64,000 nucleotides of DNA from Paenibacillus alvei DSM 29 (lineage in GTDB: Bacteria; Bacillota; Bacilli; Paenibacillales; Paenibacillaceae), in contig NZ_AMBZ01000003.1 in assembly GCF_000293805.1 (NCBI RefSeq), positions 620,001 through 684,000 on the forward strand, read 5' to 3'. A program made the translations under genes and the position numbers. This document shows, one piece after another, positions 1,421-6,877 of this stretch (position 1 is its first letter; the number at the start of each line of letters is the position of its first letter). The notes below the pieces were generated by a model. The model saw only the letters and a program-made list of their open reading frames with translations, searched no databases and was not told where the DNA came from.

Positions 1421-1487
1421 CTCTCCACTCCTATCCAATAAAATTGCACAAGTTGTGCAGCCACTCCAATCGGGGTGGTCTTTTTTT
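1421..1487 (+). repeat. Left copy of the island-flanking direct repeat (candidate attL)
   Basis: Copy of a sequence also found at 6814-6877. A 31-bp core (1443-1473) is identical in both, and the 20 bp to its left match except for one substitution. The core holds an odd palindrome with 7-bp arms (TGCACAA-G-TTGTGCA) followed by a second hairpin, CCACTCC-AATC-GGGGTGG, and seven T. The repeat therefore doubles as a rho-independent terminator behind tyrA. Direct repeats in a terminator at a gene 3' end are a common arrangement for site-specific integration. Confidence 0.75.
1461..1487 (+). terminator. Rho-independent terminator after tyrA
   Basis: CCACTCC stem, AATC loop, GGGGTGG (one G-T pair) and then a T-rich tract ending in seven T. 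Part of the left repeat. Confidence 0.75.
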
Positions 1488-1490
1488 GTC

Positions 1491-1643
1491 TTAATAAAAG
1501 TATATGGCACAAAAATGCTTCTTTTTTCCTTTGGCTTTAATTTCTAAAGATTCACCCCACCGAAATTGAATTTCTGCGGTTTCTCCAAAAACTTTTTTTG
1601 TAATAATCAAATTAGCAATTTTAAGCTTATCATCCTTCTTCAT
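1491..1643 (-). pseudogene. Small remnant ORF at the left end of the island
   Basis: On the minus strand an ATG at 1643 opens 50 codons ending at TAA (1491-1493). The product is lysine-rich with an 'EIQFRWGESLEIKAKGKKKHF' like tail. The same frame continues upstream through coding-looking sequence ('MDKEGNITRRIAK') but is cut by one TGA near 1672, so the present ORF may be the 3' half of a decayed gene. I do not recognise the family. No good ribosome binding site precedes the ATG. It lies downstream of the repressor gene on the same strand. Confidence 0.35.
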
Positions 1644-1813
1644 ATTGAGAGGGATTTTGTTTTCAATGACTCATTTCGCTATCCTTCTAGTGATATTTCC
1701 TTCTTTATCCATTGCATACATTGTCCGTATATAAATTCCGTTTTCACCCTCTTTTTAACTACCAACTAAGATATCCCCCTTTCTAGGCACGGCGAAAGCC
1801 ATGCCATAGTGAT

Positions 1814-2548
1814 TTACAAGGTGCGTCGCACTTCAACAACTTTACCTAAAACTTTAACTTGGCTAGAAGCGACCAGAATTGGTTGCATTGCAGCGTTTGA
1901 CGGCATCAGCATACATATGTCGTTTTGGAACTTAACACGCCTGAGAGTAGCGTTCTGTTCTTCTATAGCGACGATCGCAATGTCATTAGACGTAACTTCT
2001 TCTTGGATAAGACACACCGCGACGTCACCTATTGTGATGTGATCACCAATCATACTCTCTTCCGATACATGTAGAGCAAATGCCCTTCTACCTTGTGTAA
2101 TGGATCGATCTATATAAATAGTTCTGTCCGATTTGCCAGCTTCAACGACCTTACTGTATGTGATCGAATCTAATACAGGAACAGAAATGAACTTTTCATC
2201 CTTATCGGTTACATATGGTACTTTAGTGCCTTTAACCTGCGTGTATTCGGTTTTTAGGGACTTGAGTTTTTCAAGCCTTAAAAGCTTTCCTTTGACTTCT
2301 TCTGGTGCGCGTTCAATGATAGCAGCGAACAGAAGTTTTTCGACATCTCCGCCCGTTATCTCAGCGAGCGCTCTATTTAGTTCGTCCGTGGCCGGGTTAG
2401 GTGTCTTCCCGTTTTGGAGCTGGCTAATATAGCTCTTACTAACGTTATAGTTGTAGTCCTTTAATTTTTCTGCAATCACATTCAACCTCAGCCCGGAGTC
2501 TGCAATATACTTTCGCAGCAATTCATGGTAATTCATTTTTTCTTCCAT
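1814..2548 (-). CDS. CI/LexA-like repressor: XRE helix-turn-helix plus S24 peptidase-like domain
   Basis: 244 residues. Residues about 8-65 form a Cro/CI-type helix-turn-helix ('VIAEKLKDYNYNVSKSYISQLQNGKT'), and residues about 120-240 resemble the S24/LexA self-cleaving domain. The nucleophile is present (S165-M166 in 'HVSEESMIGD') and an Ala-Gly pair (A137-G138) sits where the autocleavage bond normally lies. At the position of the general-base lysine of LexA ('VTVKRL') this protein reads 'ATLRRV', i.e. arginine near residue 203, so self-cleavage may be lost. Expected role: maintenance repressor of the island, acting at the divergent promoter region 2549-2703. A GAGG element is spaced 6 nt from the first ATG, and a second ATG 12 nt downstream is possible. 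Confidence 0.85.
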   Translation of the reverse strand: MEEKMNYHELLRKYIADSGLRLNVIAEKLKDYNYNVSKSYISQLQNGKTPNPATDELNRALAEITGGDVEKLLFAAIIERAPEEVKGKLLRLEKLKSLKTEYTQVKGTKVPYVTDKDEKFISVPVLDSITYSKVVEAGKSDRTIYIDRSITQGRRAFALHVSEESMIGDHITIGDVAVCLIQEEVTSNDIAIVAIEEQNATLRRVKFQNDICMLMPSNAAMQPILVASSQVKVLGKVVEVRRTL

Positions 2549-2574
2549 CTCCTTCCTCTAATTGGGATAAACTC

Positions 2575-2603
2575 ATAATACATATGTTGCACTAAATAGT
2601 CAA
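2575..2603 (-). promoter_or_regulatory. Promoter of the repressor gene
   Basis: Read on the minus strand: TTGACT (2603-2598), 17-bp spacer, TATTAT (2580-2575). It lies 27 bp from the repressor start, and the -35 box lies inside operator-like repeats. Confidence 0.65.
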
Positions 2604-2690
2604 CAGTTCTTTGTTGTTAACTATTGACCAAAACAAAATAATGTTCTAGTATTTAGTTAACAATAGTTACACTAAAAAGTAAACAAAAGA
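2586..2690. promoter_or_regulatory. Candidate operator region between divergent repressor and Cro-like genes
   Basis: The intergenic region holds several related short elements: ACTAAATAGTCAAC near 2590, TTGTTAACTATTGAC around 2614-2628, AGTTAACAATAGTTAC around 2657-2672 and CTAAAAAGTAAAC just after it. GTTAACTAT and its complement recur and overlap both promoters. This is the layout expected for a lambda-like switch. Operator assignment is inference. Confidence 0.5.
2624..2652 (+). promoter_or_regulatory. Promoter of the Cro-like gene
   Basis: TTGACC at 2624-2629, a 17-bp spacer and TAGTAT at 2647-2652, about 50 bp upstream of the ATG at 2704 and interleaved with the operator-like repeats. 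Confidence 0.65.
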
Positions 2691-2703
2691 GGCGAAGTGA
2701 ACT

Positions 2704-2997
2704 ATGAGGTACTCGAACATTCTTTCAAATGCGGTTAATGCAAGTGGACTTTCTTATCAGCAAGTGGCTGATAAATGTAAACTTCAGGGTAAGCGAATCA
2801 CTAGATTCTATATCAGCAAATTGTGTACCGGATATAAACCGCCAGCTAGTGATGAAGTCAATCGAACACTTGCAAAAGTGTTGTCGCCATATTGTGAAGA
2901 TTTAACATATGAGAAGCTTGCAGTGGCTAAATACAAGGAGATAATCCCCGTAGATGTGATGAAAGCACTGCGACAGGAACTTAAGGAGGCCATATGA
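2704..2997 (+). CDS. Cro-like XRE-family DNA-binding protein
   Basis: 97 residues with a helix-turn-helix in the first 55 ('LSYQQVADKCKLQGKRITRFYISKLCTG'), the same general layout as the N-terminus of the divergent repressor. Its position head to head with the CI-like gene suggests the Cro/antirepressor side of a switch or the first gene of the island's early operon. GAGG 12-15 nt upstream is a weak ribosome binding site. The stop codon overlaps the start of the next small ORF (ATGA), so the two are coupled. No enzymatic domain. Confidence 0.78.
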   Translation: MRYSNILSNAVNASGLSYQQVADKCKLQGKRITRFYISKLCTGYKPPASDEVNRTLAKVLSPYCEDLTYEKLAVAKYKEIIPVDVMKALRQELKEAI

Positions 2998-3146
2998 GAA
3001 GTATTCAGGAAATTGAAAGAGATATGCTGAGTATTAATGTCACTCCCGAAACTATTGATTTTGAAATTGCGAAGCTTAAAGAAGAACTTGCACTTATCAA
3101 TTTCTTACCTGGAGGAACTGATAATGGACAGGCGGGAGTCTTATGA
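2994..3146 (+). CDS. Small hypothetical protein coupled to the Cro-like gene
   Basis: 50 codons starting at an ATG that overlaps the previous stop and is preceded by AAGGAGG at ideal distance. The predicted peptide is acidic and helical ('FEIAKLKEELALINFLPGG') with no membrane segment. Strong ribosome binding site plus coupling make translation likely, but the family is not recognised. Small proteins of this kind are usual in phage early operons. Confidence 0.55.
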   Translation: MRSIQEIERDMLSINVTPETIDFEIAKLKEELALINFLPGGTDNGQAGVL

Positions 3147-3389
3147 ATATCAGTTCTTGCGTTATTAGCAAAAGCAATGAAGCAATAGCATAAATCAAAG
3201 GATCAAGAAAACATCACTATATCAGCTTAAGGAGACAGAACTGAGGTCAAAAACAGCGATAGACTCGAACTAGCACTGTATTCTCAATTACTTGAAAATA
3301 CTAGATTCTAATGGATGGTCAATCTATGCGGGGCTGTAAGCATCGGTATAACGAGTATGCGAAAAATTTAAGGTAGGGAGAATCATACC

Positions 3390-3569
3390 ATGGATACAAA
3401 TGAAGTCATTGACCATTGCCCAGTGTGCGATAAAGAAATCTTCTTCGGGCAGGTTGTATGGAAGGTTGGAGCAGACCTGTGCTGTTCAGTTGAACACATG
3501 CTTAAGCGTGCAAAGGTAGTCATCGTAAATTCAGGTCAAGAAGGGGGGGCCTCCCATGCCCATACCTGA
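3390..3569 (+). CDS. Small cysteine-rich protein, possible zinc-ribbon
   Basis: 59 codons. The N-terminal half has Cys-x-x-Cys ('HCPVCDKEIFFG') and a Cys-Cys pair followed by 'SVEHMLKRAK', a pattern that could bind one zinc ion. AGGTAGGGAG about 12 nt upstream is a possible ribosome binding site. Overlaps the next small ORF by 14 nt. The function is unknown; comparable short zinc-binding ORFs occur in phage early regions. Confidence 0.5.
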   Translation: MDTNEVIDHCPVCDKEIFFGQVVWKVGADLCCSVEHMLKRAKVVIVNSGQEGGASHAHT

Positions 3570-3699
3570 TAAACTCCTAGATCATCTAGCAGATCGTTAC
3601 GTTCGTGAATGTATTGATCCTTCACGGTATCCATTTGAACGATGGGCTTCAGCAGAAATAGAACGGATGGGGCTAAGCAATTTTTCAACTAGGATTTAA
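3556..3699 (+). CDS. Small hypothetical protein
   Basis: 47 codons overlapping the end of the cysteine-rich ORF. A GGGGGGG run lies a few bases upstream of the ATG. The peptide is charged, with 'LADRYVRECIDPSRYPFERWASAEIERMG', and looks like a real folded or helical protein rather than random translation. Family not recognised. Confidence 0.42.
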   Translation: MPIPDKLLDHLADRYVRECIDPSRYPFERWASAEIERMGLSNFSTRI

Positions 3700-3762
3700 G
3701 TTGTTTTGAATCATATCTGGCGCAGGCAAAGACTAGCAAGCGTTAGCAGTTGGGAGGGAATC

Positions 3763-4248
3763 ATGAAAGCAATAACAATCACCCAACCATGGGCGACTTT
3801 GATCGCCCTTGGAGAGAAGAAATTCGAGACGCGCAGTTGGGCAACAAAGCACCGCGGTGAAATAGCTATTCATGCAGGTAAAAAGATTGACAAGAAAGCA
3901 TGTGCGTCAGACCCAATCCGATCAACACTGTCAGAACACGGGTATACGGTTGATAATTTGCCGACAGGTGCGGTAGTGGCGATGTGTCAGTTGGAGGATT
4001 GTTGGGAGGTTATAGGAGAAATTAATTTTCCGGTAGAAGGAACCGCTATTCTTAACGATTCGACGGGTACTAAGATATATGGAATTACGCCTGACAACAA
4101 TGAACTTTACTTTGGCGATTATTCCAAAGGGCGCTTTGCTTGGGAGATCGATGTAGTGAAGTGGATGGTAAACCCTATCCCAGCCAAAGGCCAGCAAGGT
4201 TTATGGAACTGGGATTATGAGGGGCAGGGAGGCAAAGAAAGTGAATAG
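3763..4248 (+). CDS. ASCH-domain protein
   Basis: 161 residues from the ATG at 3763, which has GGGAGGG 5-6 nt upstream; longer in-frame starts lack a ribosome binding site. The N-terminus has the ASCH signature ('ITQPWATLIALGEKKFETRSW' and 'HRGEIAIHAGKK'). ASCH domains adopt a PUA-like beta-barrel and are thought to bind RNA or modified nucleotides; related proteins are frequent in phages and mobile elements. A tryptophan-rich C-terminus ('GLWNWDYEGQ') is typical of the phage subgroup. No enzyme activity can be inferred. Confidence 0.8.
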   Translation: MKAITITQPWATLIALGEKKFETRSWATKHRGEIAIHAGKKIDKKACASDPIRSTLSEHGYTVDNLPTGAVVAMCQLEDCWEVIGEINFPVEGTAILNDSTGTKIYGITPDNNELYFGDYSKGRFAWEIDVVKWMVNPIPAKGQQGLWNWDYEGQGGKESE

Positions 4249-4382
4249 TCATTACGATCTAAAACAAGTTTATTGAATTAATTTTTATATGTAAAGCTCT
4301 GGATTGCTGAACTGCACCCTAATTGTTAGAAGACTATCAATTTTAGGAGTTTTAACTTGATTTATGGGAAAAAGATTATTGC

Positions 4383-4411
4383 TTGATGTCTGTTTGCTAT
4401 CTACCTATAAT
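4383..4411 (+). promoter_or_regulatory. Promoter of the agr-like cassette
   Basis: TTGATG at 4383-4388, a 17-bp spacer and a perfect TATAAT at 4406-4411, about 30 bp before the GTG of the first cassette gene. I saw no clear LytTR-type direct repeats next to it. Confidence 0.65.
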
Positions 4412-4442
4412 TGGATTAGAGGATGATATAGGGGGAAAATGA

Positions 4443-5099
4443 GTGACAAGTGCGTTATATATTTTCATTGGTGCATTTGAAGCGTTTGCGTTATTAACAG
4501 CGACCTTGAAACTTTTCCGATTCAAGGTAAGTTTTTATCTAAAAGACTTCGTTGTGATGTCTATTGTACTATCGTTGTCATCTTACTTAATAAGGATTGT
4601 TTTTGAAGCGCCTTGGTTCGATATTCCGCTAACGATGTGTGCAATAATAGTGTTTATGAATTATGTTATTAAAGTACGGTTGCAATATGCTGTTATAATA
4701 ACTTTATCAGGTTATGCTTTTTATACTGCTGTTCAATCATTGTTATTTTTAGTATTAAATATTACGATTAATTTCGACAGTAGTATGTTGATGGAATCCT
4801 ACGGAGTGTATCTTTATTTACTTCAGATTGCAACCGCTGGAGGGACGATGCTCATTTCAAACTTTTTGAATGCCATCGGTCTTGGTTTTACTTTTATTAT
4901 ACATCCTCCGCATAGTGATATGACAAAATTTAGCAAAAAAGAAAATAAGGTTTTTTATGCGGCAATTGTGACTTTTCTAATACTGACAGCATCAGCGGTA
5001 TTTTTATTATCAGGATATGCATGGCTCGCCTACATAATCGTTTTACTAAACTTTTCGCTTCTATACTATTTGCTCCACCGTAGGAGCGAACAGGAATGA
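4443..5099 (+). CDS. Six-helix membrane protein resembling a kinase-less AgrC sensor domain
   Basis: 218 residues from a GTG preceded by AGGGGG at 8 nt; the nearby ATG at 4439 is in another frame and ends at once. There are six or so hydrophobic segments spread over residues 1-210, with the protein ending shortly after the last one ('LLYYLLHRRSEQE'). Size and topology resemble the N-terminal membrane sensor of AgrC-type histidine kinases, but the DHp and GHKL kinase domains are missing. The stop overlaps the agrB start (ATGA), so this is not a frameshifted kinase. A role as peptide receptor, immunity or export helper is inference from position. Confidence 0.6.
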   Translation: MTSALYIFIGAFEAFALLTATLKLFRFKVSFYLKDFVVMSIVLSLSSYLIRIVFEAPWFDIPLTMCAIIVFMNYVIKVRLQYAVIITLSGYAFYTAVQSLLFLVLNITINFDSSMLMESYGVYLYLLQIATAGGTMLISNFLNAIGLGFTFIIHPPHSDMTKFSKKENKVFYAAIVTFLILTASAVFLLSGYAWLAYIIVLLNFSLLYYLLHRRSEQE

Positions 5100-5647
5100 T
5101 AGAGAAGATTTCAAAATTTCTTACCGCATTTTTAAGACGTAATGGTAGTCACGTGAGCCATGAGGTGCTTACGTATGCATTCGCCAATATACTGAATATT
5201 TTTTTTGTAACGACTTCATCTATCACTATAGGTTTTATTTCTGGAAGACCCATCGATACTATTGTTTCTTTACTCGCTTTTGGTGTAATCAGGCATTTTT
5301 CAGGTGGATTGCATGCGAAGACGATGGATCTATGTTTCATCGTGTCAACCCTGATAATCGTTGTTCCACCGCATATCATGTTATCAACGAACGCAGTATT
5401 AGGTATATCAATATTAGGACTGATATGCTATATACTGTTTGCACCGAATGTCACCGAATACTTGAGCAGCACGAATGACCACAAACTTCGGAATAAGTTG
5501 ATTTCTGTTCTGATGGTCGGTGCAAACATATATATACAATCATCAACACTTGCGCTTGTTTACCTAGCACAAGCTTTGCTGATTATTCCACATTCTAGGA
5601 AAGGAGCTAAATATCATGAAAAAACAATTGGTAAAGATAACATCTAA
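5096..5647 (+). CDS. agrB: AgrB-type autoinducer-processing peptidase
   Basis: 183-residue membrane protein of the accessory gene regulator B family, which cuts the C-terminal tail of AgrD and helps cyclise the peptide. The catalytic histidine and cysteine are present with the canonical spacing of seven: 'R66-H-F-S-G-G-L-H73-A-K-T-M-D-L-C80', matching His77/Cys84 of the staphylococcal enzyme. Several hydrophobic segments follow. Start overlaps the preceding stop; the 3' end overlaps the autoinducer gene by 32 nt. So the processing enzyme looks intact although the substrate is unusual. Confidence 0.9.
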   Translation: MIEKISKFLTAFLRRNGSHVSHEVLTYAFANILNIFFVTTSSITIGFISGRPIDTIVSLLAFGVIRHFSGGLHAKTMDLCFIVSTLIIVVPPHIMLSTNAVLGISILGLICYILFAPNVTEYLSSTNDHKLRNKLISVLMVGANIYIQSSTLALVYLAQALLIIPHSRKGAKYHEKTIGKDNI

Positions 5648-5738
5648 TGTTCTTTCTGTTGCGGCAAATAGCTTTTCAAAGCAAGCAAAGATATTTGTTG
5701 GATCTCTGCCGGTGCCTAAAGAGTTGCGCAAGAAATAA
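5616..5738 (+). CDS. agrD: AgrD-like autoinducer propeptide without cysteine
   Basis: 40 residues, start ATG with AAAGGAG 6-7 nt upstream, beginning inside the end of agrB as agrD genes usually do. It has a basic amphipathic N-terminal leader ('MKKQLVKITSNVLSVAANSF') and a C-terminal 'PVPKELRKK' closely matching the conserved 'VPKEL' recognition tail of AgrD. Between them is S-F-S-K-Q-A-K-I-F-V-G-S: no cysteine occurs anywhere in the peptide, and alanine (A24) occupies the position that aligns with the thiolactone cysteine when the PKEL tails are superposed. A serine lactone (S19 or S21) or a linear peptide would be required. Confidence 0.8.
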   Translation: MKKQLVKITSNVLSVAANSFSKQAKIFVGSLPVPKELRKK

Positions 5739-5753
5739 TGATAAGGTGTCGAT

Positions 5754-6122
5754 ATGGAATTATTAGGAGTTAGAGTCGAGAATGGGAAACCAGTAGGGGA
5801 CTTCGATACATTCACTATTGACGACCTTTATTTTGCTGAGGCATTTCGACCGAAGGCCAATCATATTTTGCCGCTTTTTCACACGCGAAAGGGCACATTT
5901 ACGGTGCTTACAACTTTGGGTGAACATTATGAAGCGTTCTCAAAATATGAATGTATCAAGCTTTTGGACTCAAGCAGCTTTGCGAATGTAAACAACATTG
6001 AATATACGAGACCCGATGGCAGGGGGGCGATTGCGTATTTTAAAGATTACCCTATTCCATTATATGTATCTCGTGATAAGAAGAAATACATTCGACATTT
6101 AATGACAAAGAGCCTTTGGTGA
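5754..6122 (+). CDS. Stand-alone LytTR DNA-binding protein
   Basis: 122 residues that are one LytTR domain: 'FTIDDLYFAEAF', 'LFHTRKGTFTVLTTLGEHYEAF', 'SSSFANVNNIEYT' and 'PIPLYVSRDKKKYIRHLM' follow the order of the AgrA/LytR DNA-binding fold. There is no N-terminal receiver domain, so no phosphorylatable aspartate. AAGGTG 6 nt before the ATG. Expected to be the transcription factor of the agr-like cassette, but how it could sense peptide without a kinase and receiver is not evident. Followed at once by a strong terminator. Confidence 0.85.
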   Translation: MELLGVRVENGKPVGDFDTFTIDDLYFAEAFRPKANHILPLFHTRKGTFTVLTTLGEHYEAFSKYECIKLLDSSSFANVNNIEYTRPDGRGAIAYFKDYPIPLYVSRDKKKYIRHLMTKSLW

Positions 6123-6137
6123 AAAAGGCTCTTTTTT
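6107..6137 (+). terminator. Terminator of the agr-like operon
   Basis: Perfect 11-bp stem AAAGAGCCTTT (6107-6117) / AAAGGCTCTTT (6124-6134) followed by T residues; it starts within the last codons of the LytTR gene. Confidence 0.85.
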
Positions 6138-6169
6138 CATCTCTATTACCATGAAAATAATTAATAAGT

Positions 6170-6203
6170 AAAGGCCAGATTAACCTAGGTTAATCTGGCC
6201 TTT
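6170..6203. terminator. Perfect 34-bp palindrome, probable bidirectional terminator
   Basis: AAAGGCCAGATTAACC and its exact complement around a central TAGG/CCTA core, followed by TTTTTG. The second terminator-like element within 70 bp after the LytTR gene. A further 7-bp inverted repeat (TTGTCGA/TCGACAA) follows at 6204-6223. Confidence 0.65.
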
Positions 6204-6215
6204 TTGTCGACTGAA

Positions 6216-6249
6216 TTCGACAATAAGATATATGATCATATGCTATTAT
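6216..6249 (+). promoter_or_regulatory. Candidate promoter for the 6372 ORF
   Basis: TTCGAC (6216-6221) is 17 bp from TATGCT (6239-6244), and an extended -10 reading TG-C-TATTAT overlaps it at 6241-6249. Either would start an RNA about 115-125 nt before the ORF. Weak evidence. Confidence 0.4.
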
Positions 6250-6371
6250 TTTTACGAGGTTATACTGCTGCAATGGAACTGGGAATTATATCATGTTGCC
6301 TTACAGGGGTTCGATTCTATTTGCAGAATTCCTGAATACGGAAAATGTAATCATAAGGATGGTGTTCTCTA

Positions 6372-6803
6372 ATGCAAACAAATTCAGTCGATCAACTGCA
6401 AACAAAAATCATGGTTCTATATAATGAAGCATTTCTAATTGAGCCGATTCTAGCTGAAGCGATCATAGAGGTGTTTAATTTTGCTTGCCAAGTTAAATAT
6501 AACTCGAAGCTTCACGAAGAATGGATTGAAAATATGATTGAACAACGCACCTGGGAAGTCGTAGCGAATTGTGAGAAGTCTAACGAACAAGTCTATGAAG
6601 CGTTTGCTGGGGAATTACAAAAGCTCGAGGGAATAATTCCCAACGATCGTATTCTTGCTTTAGAGGATCTGTTTGTTCAAAAACTTTATGGTTTTAATGA
6701 TGCATATAAAACAGGTGTTGGAGACGGAATGATGGTTGAACAAATGCGCCGTAAACTAGCCTGTATACAACCAGTTCACGGGCATCTGTTCTATTTACAG
6801 TAA
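6372..6803 (+). CDS. Hypothetical protein at the right end of the island
   Basis: 143 residues, soluble, mostly alpha-helical, acidic. The C-terminal part 'FNDAYKTGVGDGMMVEQMRRKL' resembles the 'F..G...G..L' endings seen in small Firmicutes proteins of unknown function, but I cannot name a family. AAGGA lies 12 nt before the ATG. It sits just inside the right flanking repeat, where cargo genes of integrated elements often lie. Role in the agr-like system is unknown; it has its own putative promoter and two terminators separate it from that operon. Confidence 0.6.
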   Translation: MQTNSVDQLQTKIMVLYNEAFLIEPILAEAIIEVFNFACQVKYNSKLHEEWIENMIEQRTWEVVANCEKSNEQVYEAFAGELQKLEGIIPNDRILALEDLFVQKLYGFNDAYKTGVGDGMMVEQMRRKLACIQPVHGHLFYLQ

Positions 6804-6813
6804 CGGGACAGGA

Positions 6814-6877
6814 CTCTCCTCTCCTATCCAATAGATTGCACAAGTTGTGCAGCCACTCCAATCGGAGTGGTTTTTTT
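6814..6877 (+). repeat. Right copy of the island-flanking direct repeat (candidate attR)
   Basis: Matches the left copy at 1421-1487; the 31-bp core is at 6835-6865. In this copy the second hairpin is perfect (CCACTCC-AATC-GGAGTGG) and is followed by seven T. The promoter found next to the left copy is absent here. Confidence 0.75.
6853..6877 (+). terminator. Rho-independent terminator at the right end of the island
   Basis: 7-bp stem CCACTCC/GGAGTGG with AATC loop and seven T, part of the right repeat; it separates the island from the ECF sigma gene. Confidence 0.75.

Follow-up and report, generated by a model that had tools for sequence, protein, structure and literature searches.

LytTR Regulatory Systems (LRS) are described as minimally two-gene operons in which the regulator comes first, apart from exceptions in Bacteroides, with 9-bp direct repeats spaced 11–13 bp located 5' of the operon promoter (PMC6193735); a term search of that paper returned no AgrB, AgrD, or Paenibacillus. 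Genes related to the agr quorum-sensing system (AgrBDCA) have been reported from phages, with membrane proteins lacking HATPase_c described alongside AgrB and a putative AgrD for Davies, Emery, and Abouo (Hargreaves et al. 2014, PMC3901668), and an AgrB gene appearing within an abbreviated list of gene names in a Brevibacillus phage paper (PMC4909266). A 2025 review treats phage agr homologues and LytTR proteins, the part of its text available to us naming neither Paenibacillus nor Brevibacillus (PMC11945551). The 64,000-nucleotide stretch of Paenibacillus alvei DSM 29 analyzed here (the window; contig NZ_AMBZ01000003.1, positions 620,001 to 684,000) holds a four-gene cassette that encodes a membrane protein (M), AgrB, a signal-peptide precursor with a conserved Lys near the position of the Cys or Ser of the AgrD ring (Lys-type, as opposed to Cys/Ser-type), and a LytTR protein (R). 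The cassette is probably a mobile, agr-derived signaling system without phosphotransfer, in which M would control R directly, a coupling that we infer.

The preliminary description of this DNA had presented the four genes as an intact, closely packed set with an own promoter and terminator, and the open reading frame coordinates (Table 1), the family matches, and the recurrence described below all agree with a complete set. M overlaps AgrB and AgrB overlaps the peptide gene. The promoter-like site and the terminator-like hairpin that frame the genes are consensus matches only, with match numbers within the shuffled range; the hexamers and spacing of the former are repeated 5' of M in L072 and L078, two other cassettes of the same genome. 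All four proteins match PHROG families (15604, 10353, 36013, and 15081). AgrB, a match to the Pfam AgrB model at E 5e-18, retains the catalytic residues His-73 and Cys-80 noted earlier, which are invariant in 10 aligned rows including the window. Ratios of nonsynonymous to synonymous substitution (dN/dS) between the window copy and L072 and L078 are 0.28 and 0.21 for AgrB, 0.22 and 0.16 for the peptide, and 0.18 and 0.18 for R, with a value of 0.31 for M in the L072 comparison only; the cassette is under purifying selection. Because the gene order recurs in 63 loci and dN/dS lies between 0.16 and 0.31, the cassette is not a chance set. A degraded agr locus or chance leftovers, for which the split of M into two frames in two of the genome's six copies could be cited, is contradicted by the same recurrence and dN/dS values as well as by phage copies from two host genera, and is barely credible.

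Judged from its sequence relatives, M corresponds to the sensor half of an AgrC-type receptor, with the kinase absent. It matches phrog_15604 (E 3e-32), finds nothing of weight in Pfam and no kinase domain in Pfam or NCBIfam, and has no sequence-related PDB chain at E up to 1. Hydropathy and charge predict about seven transmembrane segments with the N-terminus outside, and a conserved loop, GF(S/T)FI(I)xPPH, is predicted to be cytoplasmic, on the positive side. In three genomes (G066, G073, and G080) the M profile also covers the first half of open frames 456–477 amino acids (aa) long; in the two fusions tested by Pfam, L125 and L130, the second half is HATPase_c and GHKL, encoded close to AgrB, and the C-terminal end of M falls about where the kinase would begin in these fused relatives. 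The earlier view of M as the sensor half of AgrC and nothing more is thereby upheld, and a kinase gained by extending M is ruled out, as the frame closes at its own stop codon. Two longer M frames, in L059 (311 aa) and L077 (425 aa), are upstream start-codon extensions, presumably so in L059 and with a low-complexity look in L077. M-kinase fusion genes lie near AgrB in L124 (two in a row), L125 (three), and L130 (one). Separately, M occurs in tandem arrays, with six in a row in L102 (11447-15820) and others in L092 and L098 (G069 and G061), many not adjoining AgrB; these are possibly receptor arrays.

R is, by its sequence and its structural model, a LytTR protein without a receiver, as first described. 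Its Pfam LytTR match (E 0.0027, 18.3 bits) lies below the 22.6-bit cut-off, as does that of R from phage Emery (19.1 bits), and relatives in L053, L057, L106, and L132 exceed the cut-off, those of L053 and L057 matching twice. The AlphaFold model of R has the LytTR fold with a predicted local distance difference test score of 92.6, and all 13 PDB matches at E ≤ 0.001 are LytTR proteins, among them AgrA, ComE, and a Bacillus cereus LytTR domain. The output protein is swapped in some loci, for LytTR joined to GGDEF-EAL in L106 and L132 and for a double LytTR protein in L057. A LytTR protein of about 604 aa lies behind M-AgrB at L106:1476-3296, L132:8187-9995, and L140:5490-7304, with GGDEF and EAL in L106 and L132, through which a quorum signal is possibly linked to cyclic-di-GMP.

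The recurrence of a kinase-less gene order in other genomes, proposed beforehand as a supporting check, was found. Among 98 genomes sharing the genus, family, or order of the window, its own genome being one of them, 65 have the M family (phrog_15604), as against none of 14 controls; an eight-protein M profile, with at most eight candidates scored per genome, finds 27 of 348 genomes of the class and 8 of its 135 genera. The locus set comprised 100 regions, four phages, and the window, with genes typed by purpose-built profiles. The regions were chosen by us among the M matches listed, both strong and weaker, with some tandem matches merged, and since they were picked for holding M the locus counts are conditional on M. 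The order M (<300 aa)-AgrB-R is found at 63 of 92 AgrB loci, in 37 genomes and four phages, and M and AgrB overlap or lie ≤5 nt apart in 60 of the 63. Two of the remaining AgrB loci have longer M frames, and at another five AgrB is not directly preceded by M, with kinase-fused systems at three of them (L124, L125, and L130). Relatives of M and AgrB occur in the phages Paisley and Harrison of Paenibacillus larvae and Abouo, Davies, and Emery of Brevibacillus laterosporus, and the four-gene order is present in all four phage regions read (Paisley, Abouo, Emery, and Davies). The cassette stands beside a serine recombinase in Paisley, directly behind the integrase in Abouo and Davies, and about 2 kb from a tyrosine recombinase in Emery, with a second M in Davies and Emery; this position near integration functions, and the filing of PHROG 15604 as a moron, are traits of phage morons. 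M, AgrB, and R are together in 12 of 12 IMG/VR loci (two nearly identical), and R is present in 12 of 14 named Paenibacillus loci. The window's own genome (6.8 Mb) holds six AgrB genes, with M, AgrB, and R sets by profile in the window, L049, L053, L072, and L078; counterparts of L072, L049, and L053 with equal gene lengths occur in a single IMG genome, on three prophage contigs (L179, L181, and L189).

The surroundings of the cassettes were scanned for about 4 kb on either side with a kinase profile built from six seeds and a receiver profile built from four. With the first, a profile small enough that distant kinases could be missed, no histidine kinase was found in 58 of the 63 complete-cassette regions, nor near any of the 24 complete cassettes with a typed Lys-type peptide. 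The kinases in the other five regions are HATPase_c/GHKL proteins by Pfam, four with SPOB_a, and as their cassettes have Cys/Ser-type peptides a kinase may take part in that group. Receiver proteins are present in four of the 63 regions, those in L058, L061, and L121 being of LuxR type and the fourth lying in L103. That homologous loci might all carry full AgrC and AgrA, making the window copy simply a reduced one, is thus not the case. M could instead pair with a host AgrC/GHKL kinase, as partner or decoy, with R competing with full-length LytTR regulators as BlpS does with BlpR, BlpS being described as a LytTR-only repressor protein (PMC8545106). In favor of such a pairing, the own genome contains 14 matches to GHKL and 11 to LytTR, with a GHKL and a LytTR match separated by about 1 kb on contig C6, and GHKL kinases lie near the cassette in five of the 63 regions. 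The absence of any kinase found by profile near the 24 typed Lys-type cassettes, the joint recurrence of the four genes in phages and several genera, and a conserved downstream sequence (element A, below) that stays with the cassettes at three of its four perfect genome matches argue for a self-contained set, and pairing with a host kinase appears unlikely.

The peptide had been described as AgrD-like, which holds for a conserved precursor encoded beside AgrB and not for its kind. Its core, K-I-F-V-G-S-L-P-V-P, has no Cys; the precursor matches phrog_36013 (E 1e-4) and has no match in Pfam or in NCBIfam, including the AgrD model. With no Cys or Ser at the ring position and no NCBIfam match, it is not a canonical AgrD. 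Among five peptides of each type chosen by us from relatives, the AgrD model TIGR04223 matched all five of the Cys/Ser-type and none of the Lys-type. Lys, Gly, and Pro are constant among 31 peptides picked by hand. The motif P-x-[EADSTKQN]-[LM] anchored a peptide at 72 of the 92 AgrB loci and not at 20. When these are aligned on the Pro of P-x-x-L, 32 of 72 have Lys at −9 without Cys or Ser at −10, 32 have Cys or Ser at −10 without Lys at −9, one has both, and seven have neither (Ser at −9 in six of them, Cys at −11 in the other), an exclusivity with a Fisher p of 1.6e-12, though the loci are related. Other Lys residues in the 33 peptides with Lys at −9 are found at −12 in 14, at −11 in five, at −10 in two, and at −8 in none; L182 departs from the −9 spacing, with three residues fewer from Gly to Pro. 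On the AgrB tree the peptide type changes three times, compared with 24.1 in shuffles (a quick method, with many weak branches), so AgrB and peptide type go together. Ser as a general ring residue in the window's clade was rejected, several precursors having no Ser there while Lys is constant.

Counting ring atoms suggests how a Lys might serve. A ring closed on −6 by Cys or Ser at −10 has 4 + 4x3 = 16 atoms, and the side-chain amine of Lys at −9 closing on −6 gives 7 + 3x3 = 16 atoms, so that a shift by one residue would exactly offset the longer side chain; closing on −5, a Gly in the window's clade, would give 19. The arithmetic is consistent with a lactam ring, and a linear product could be formed instead. 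The cores of the six cassette copies in the own genome all differ (KIFVG, KVFLG, KIFAG, KTFIG, KTFFG, and KIVFG), from which it follows that any one phage or island would keep count of its own kind. This unusual peptide class, like the conserved element downstream of R, was overlooked in the preliminary description. In one locus of the same genome a Lys-type precursor and a double LytTR protein form a single in-frame fusion of 278 aa (L053:2730-3566), with equal lengths at L189:1872-2708, and AgrB cutting could there itself release a transcription factor. The Lys-type precursors are also rich in Lys and Arg, as would be expected if the secreted peptide, cyclic or linear, were a bacteriocin-like weapon, with M as immunity protein and R as regulator of production. 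The tandem arrays of M, up to the six of L102, and the occurrence of M in regions without AgrB would suit an immunity function. Known AgrB products are signals, however, and M is homologous to a receptor that is kinase-fused in other genomes, and the weapon is improbable.

Behind R lies a conserved element consisting of element A and, in most loci, a following TTCGACA. GT(C/A)AAG...CTAG is kept even where R is only 22–39% identical to that of the window, two copies of TTCGACA with a 10-base period occur at 11 of 27 loci, and 12 of 27 have a −10-like hexamer 27 or 28 bases past TCGACA, by a loose pattern chosen after looking. In the three Brevibacillus phages the first part of the element is present and TCGACA absent. 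Downstream of R, 22 of 24 loci have element A (three by the first half only) and 19 of 24 have [T/C]CGACA, a count that drops three of the 27 loci (L051, L187, and L190) and includes several close relatives. TCGACA occurs in 10 of 24 Lys-type loci (1.4 in shuffles), six of 13 untyped loci (0.2), and one of 24 Cys/Ser-type loci (1.5), and the strict element-A pattern is present in seven of 24 Lys-type loci (0.1 in shuffles) but in none of the 13 untyped and none of the 24 Cys/Ser-type ones. Among the six untyped loci with TCGACA, five have a Lys-type motif, and in the remaining one, L053, such a motif can be made out by eye. In the own genome the element-A pattern, shortened after an earlier form, one base too long, had matched only one other place, gives four perfect matches, three of them at cassettes, with L072 and L053 missed. 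Read on the opposite strand, TTCGACA is TGTCGAA, the sequence given for the Spo0A box (PMC3485338). Just behind the element the window cassette ceases to be homologous to those of L072 and L078, so the element may also mark the edge of a module; in several loci it is followed by small genes belonging to two families. On the other side of the cassette, TGTCGA, the core of the Spo0A box, occurs 5' of M in nine of 39 Cys/Ser-type loci versus 2.0 in shuffles (e.g. L080, L119, and L136).

In the proposed mechanism of direct control of R by M, AgrB would cut and export the Lys-type peptide, as the intact catalytic pair and the conserved precursor suggest, and the exported peptide would bind M outside the cell. 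M would then alter its hold on R, most simply by retaining R at the membrane through the GFSFIxPPH loop and then releasing it, or the reverse, and free R may act on the element 3' of its own gene to set the expression of the small genes up to the end of the carrier element. A more specific version, phosphorylation-free phage quorum sensing in which AgrB closes a Lys(−9) macrolactam, a kinase-less receptor directly controls the LytTR protein, and a Spo0A-box-like promoter ties phage density to sporulation state, is doubtful in this full form.

Several observations weigh against direct control of R by M in a self-contained cassette. At 22 of the 92 AgrB loci M is present but no R lies within 450 nt, regions holding M but no AgrB exist, and the two own-genome copies with M in two frames are L078 and L091, the latter also without R. 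The five regions with a GHKL kinase gene (L099, L105, L107, L109, and L119) all have Cys/Ser-type peptides, and Lys-type peptides also stand beside M-kinase fusions (L125 and L130), so that peptide class and kinase loss are separate traits. At up to one mismatch the genome holds seven element-A matches versus four for a reversed control. The operator role of the element is a candidate one, proposed after viewing the same loci from their sequence, and the element could be recognized by Spo0A or mark the boundary of the module.

The cassette is carried on a small island, as had been described, flanked by 65-bp direct repeats of which L149 and L150 have a single copy. In these two relatives the single copy joins the prephenate dehydrogenase gene to the gene for an extracytoplasmic function (ECF) sigma factor, which marks the empty site. 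A 25-base core of the repeat, with up to three mismatches, is found only at the two island ends in the whole genome, and the repeat contains a palindrome and a terminator-like end. Integration into a tRNA was rejected, as no tRNA and no Rfam family lies at the repeats. Among the open reading frames and families of the island, which holds further small genes besides those in Table 1, no integrase or structural phage gene was seen. The island looks like a small prophage remnant or satellite, and position alone suggests a possible role of the cassette in lysogeny. At the site of the island, the closest relative by the ECF sigma gene, L148 (G017), carries different DNA of about 1 kb.

Table 1. Features of the cassette and its carrier island (positions in the window)
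Feature	Position	Strand	Remarks
Island, ~5.4 kb	1421-6877		65-bp repeat at both ends; empty site in relatives
Left copy of 65-bp direct repeat	1421-1485	+	Terminator-like, with TTGCACAAGTTGTGCA; 92% identical to 6814-6877
S24-type repressor	1814-2548	-	Island gene
Helix-turn-helix (HTH) gene	2704-2997		Island gene
ASCH-domain gene	3763-4248		Island gene
Promoter-like TTGATG-17-TATAAT, 5' of M	4383-4411	+	Consensus match
M	4443-5099	+	218 aa; AgrC-type sensor without kinase, by sequence
AgrB	5096-5647	+	183 aa; membrane peptidase type, His-73/Cys-80
Signal-peptide precursor gene	5616-5738	+	40 aa, Lys-type
R	5754-6122	+	122 aa; single LytTR DNA-binding domain, receiver absent
Terminator-like hairpin, end of R gene	6107-6134	+	Consensus match
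Element A, GTAAAGGCCAGATTAACCTAG, inside palindrome 6170-6203	6168-6188	+	Candidate operator of R
Tandem GTCGAC-N4-TTCGACA and TATTAT (27 bases after TCGACA)	6206-6249	+	Candidate promoter, Spo0A-box-like sites
Small protein, downstream of element	6372-6803	+	Relatives behind cassette in L007, L180, and L190
Right copy of 65-bp direct repeat	6814-6877	+	92% identical to 1421-1485

If direct control of R by M is correct, agr-type signaling is possible without a two-component relay, by a direct receptor-to-LytTR switch in four small genes, and phages of Paenibacillus and Brevibacillus may have a further route of communication. From the Lys-type precursors an autoinducing peptide of a chemically new class is predicted, and because the AgrD model missed the six Lys-type peptides tested, surveys relying on that model would undercount agr-like systems. 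The cassette shares with agr the His/Cys pair of AgrB, a precursor ending P-x-E-L, a sensor related to a GHKL-kinase receptor, and a LytTR output, and differs in having no kinase in M, no receiver in R, the order M-B-D-R, and a Lys-type precursor. Of four agr features considered, the catalytic pair of AgrB is therefore present and three are missing: the AgrD ring with its TIGR04223 match, the AgrC kinase, and the AgrA receiver. Arbitrium employs a cytoplasmic receptor and a linear peptide, and phage-borne peptide counting is common to it and the system proposed here.

With LRS the cassette has in common a receiver-less LytTR protein encoded together with a membrane protein and the absence of a kinase; unlike LRS, M comes first and R last in the window and the 63 loci, and AgrB and the peptide are added. 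In LRS the membrane protein acts as an inhibitor of the regulator. Strict consensus repeats in two forms, with gaps of 9–15, were found in 0 of 101 upstream regions, these forms omitting some of the repeats tabulated in PMC6193735. Looser repeats occur at chance level, with eight matches at 8 of 9 positions versus 7.5 in shuffles and nine with both copies 6/9 to ACCACTTAT versus 8.7; the best pair in the window scores 7/9, and a degenerate site could be missed. Two of three testable LRS features, repeats and gene order, thus fail, and the suggested membership in this family is not sustained.

Among phage systems, phiCDHM1 encodes an AgrC of 453 aa, unlike the kinase-less M, and for Davies, Emery, and Abouo the available parts of the same paper do not mention a regulator gene (PMC3901668). 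Among the open-licence PubMed Central articles listed, at most 20 per search, no title or abstract opening described the LytTR-containing cassette or a Lys-type AgrD. Beyond what those parts of PMC3901668 describe, our analysis adds a LytTR gene to the set, places the peptide in the Lys-type class, describes the element behind R, and documents how the cassette is spread among relatives.

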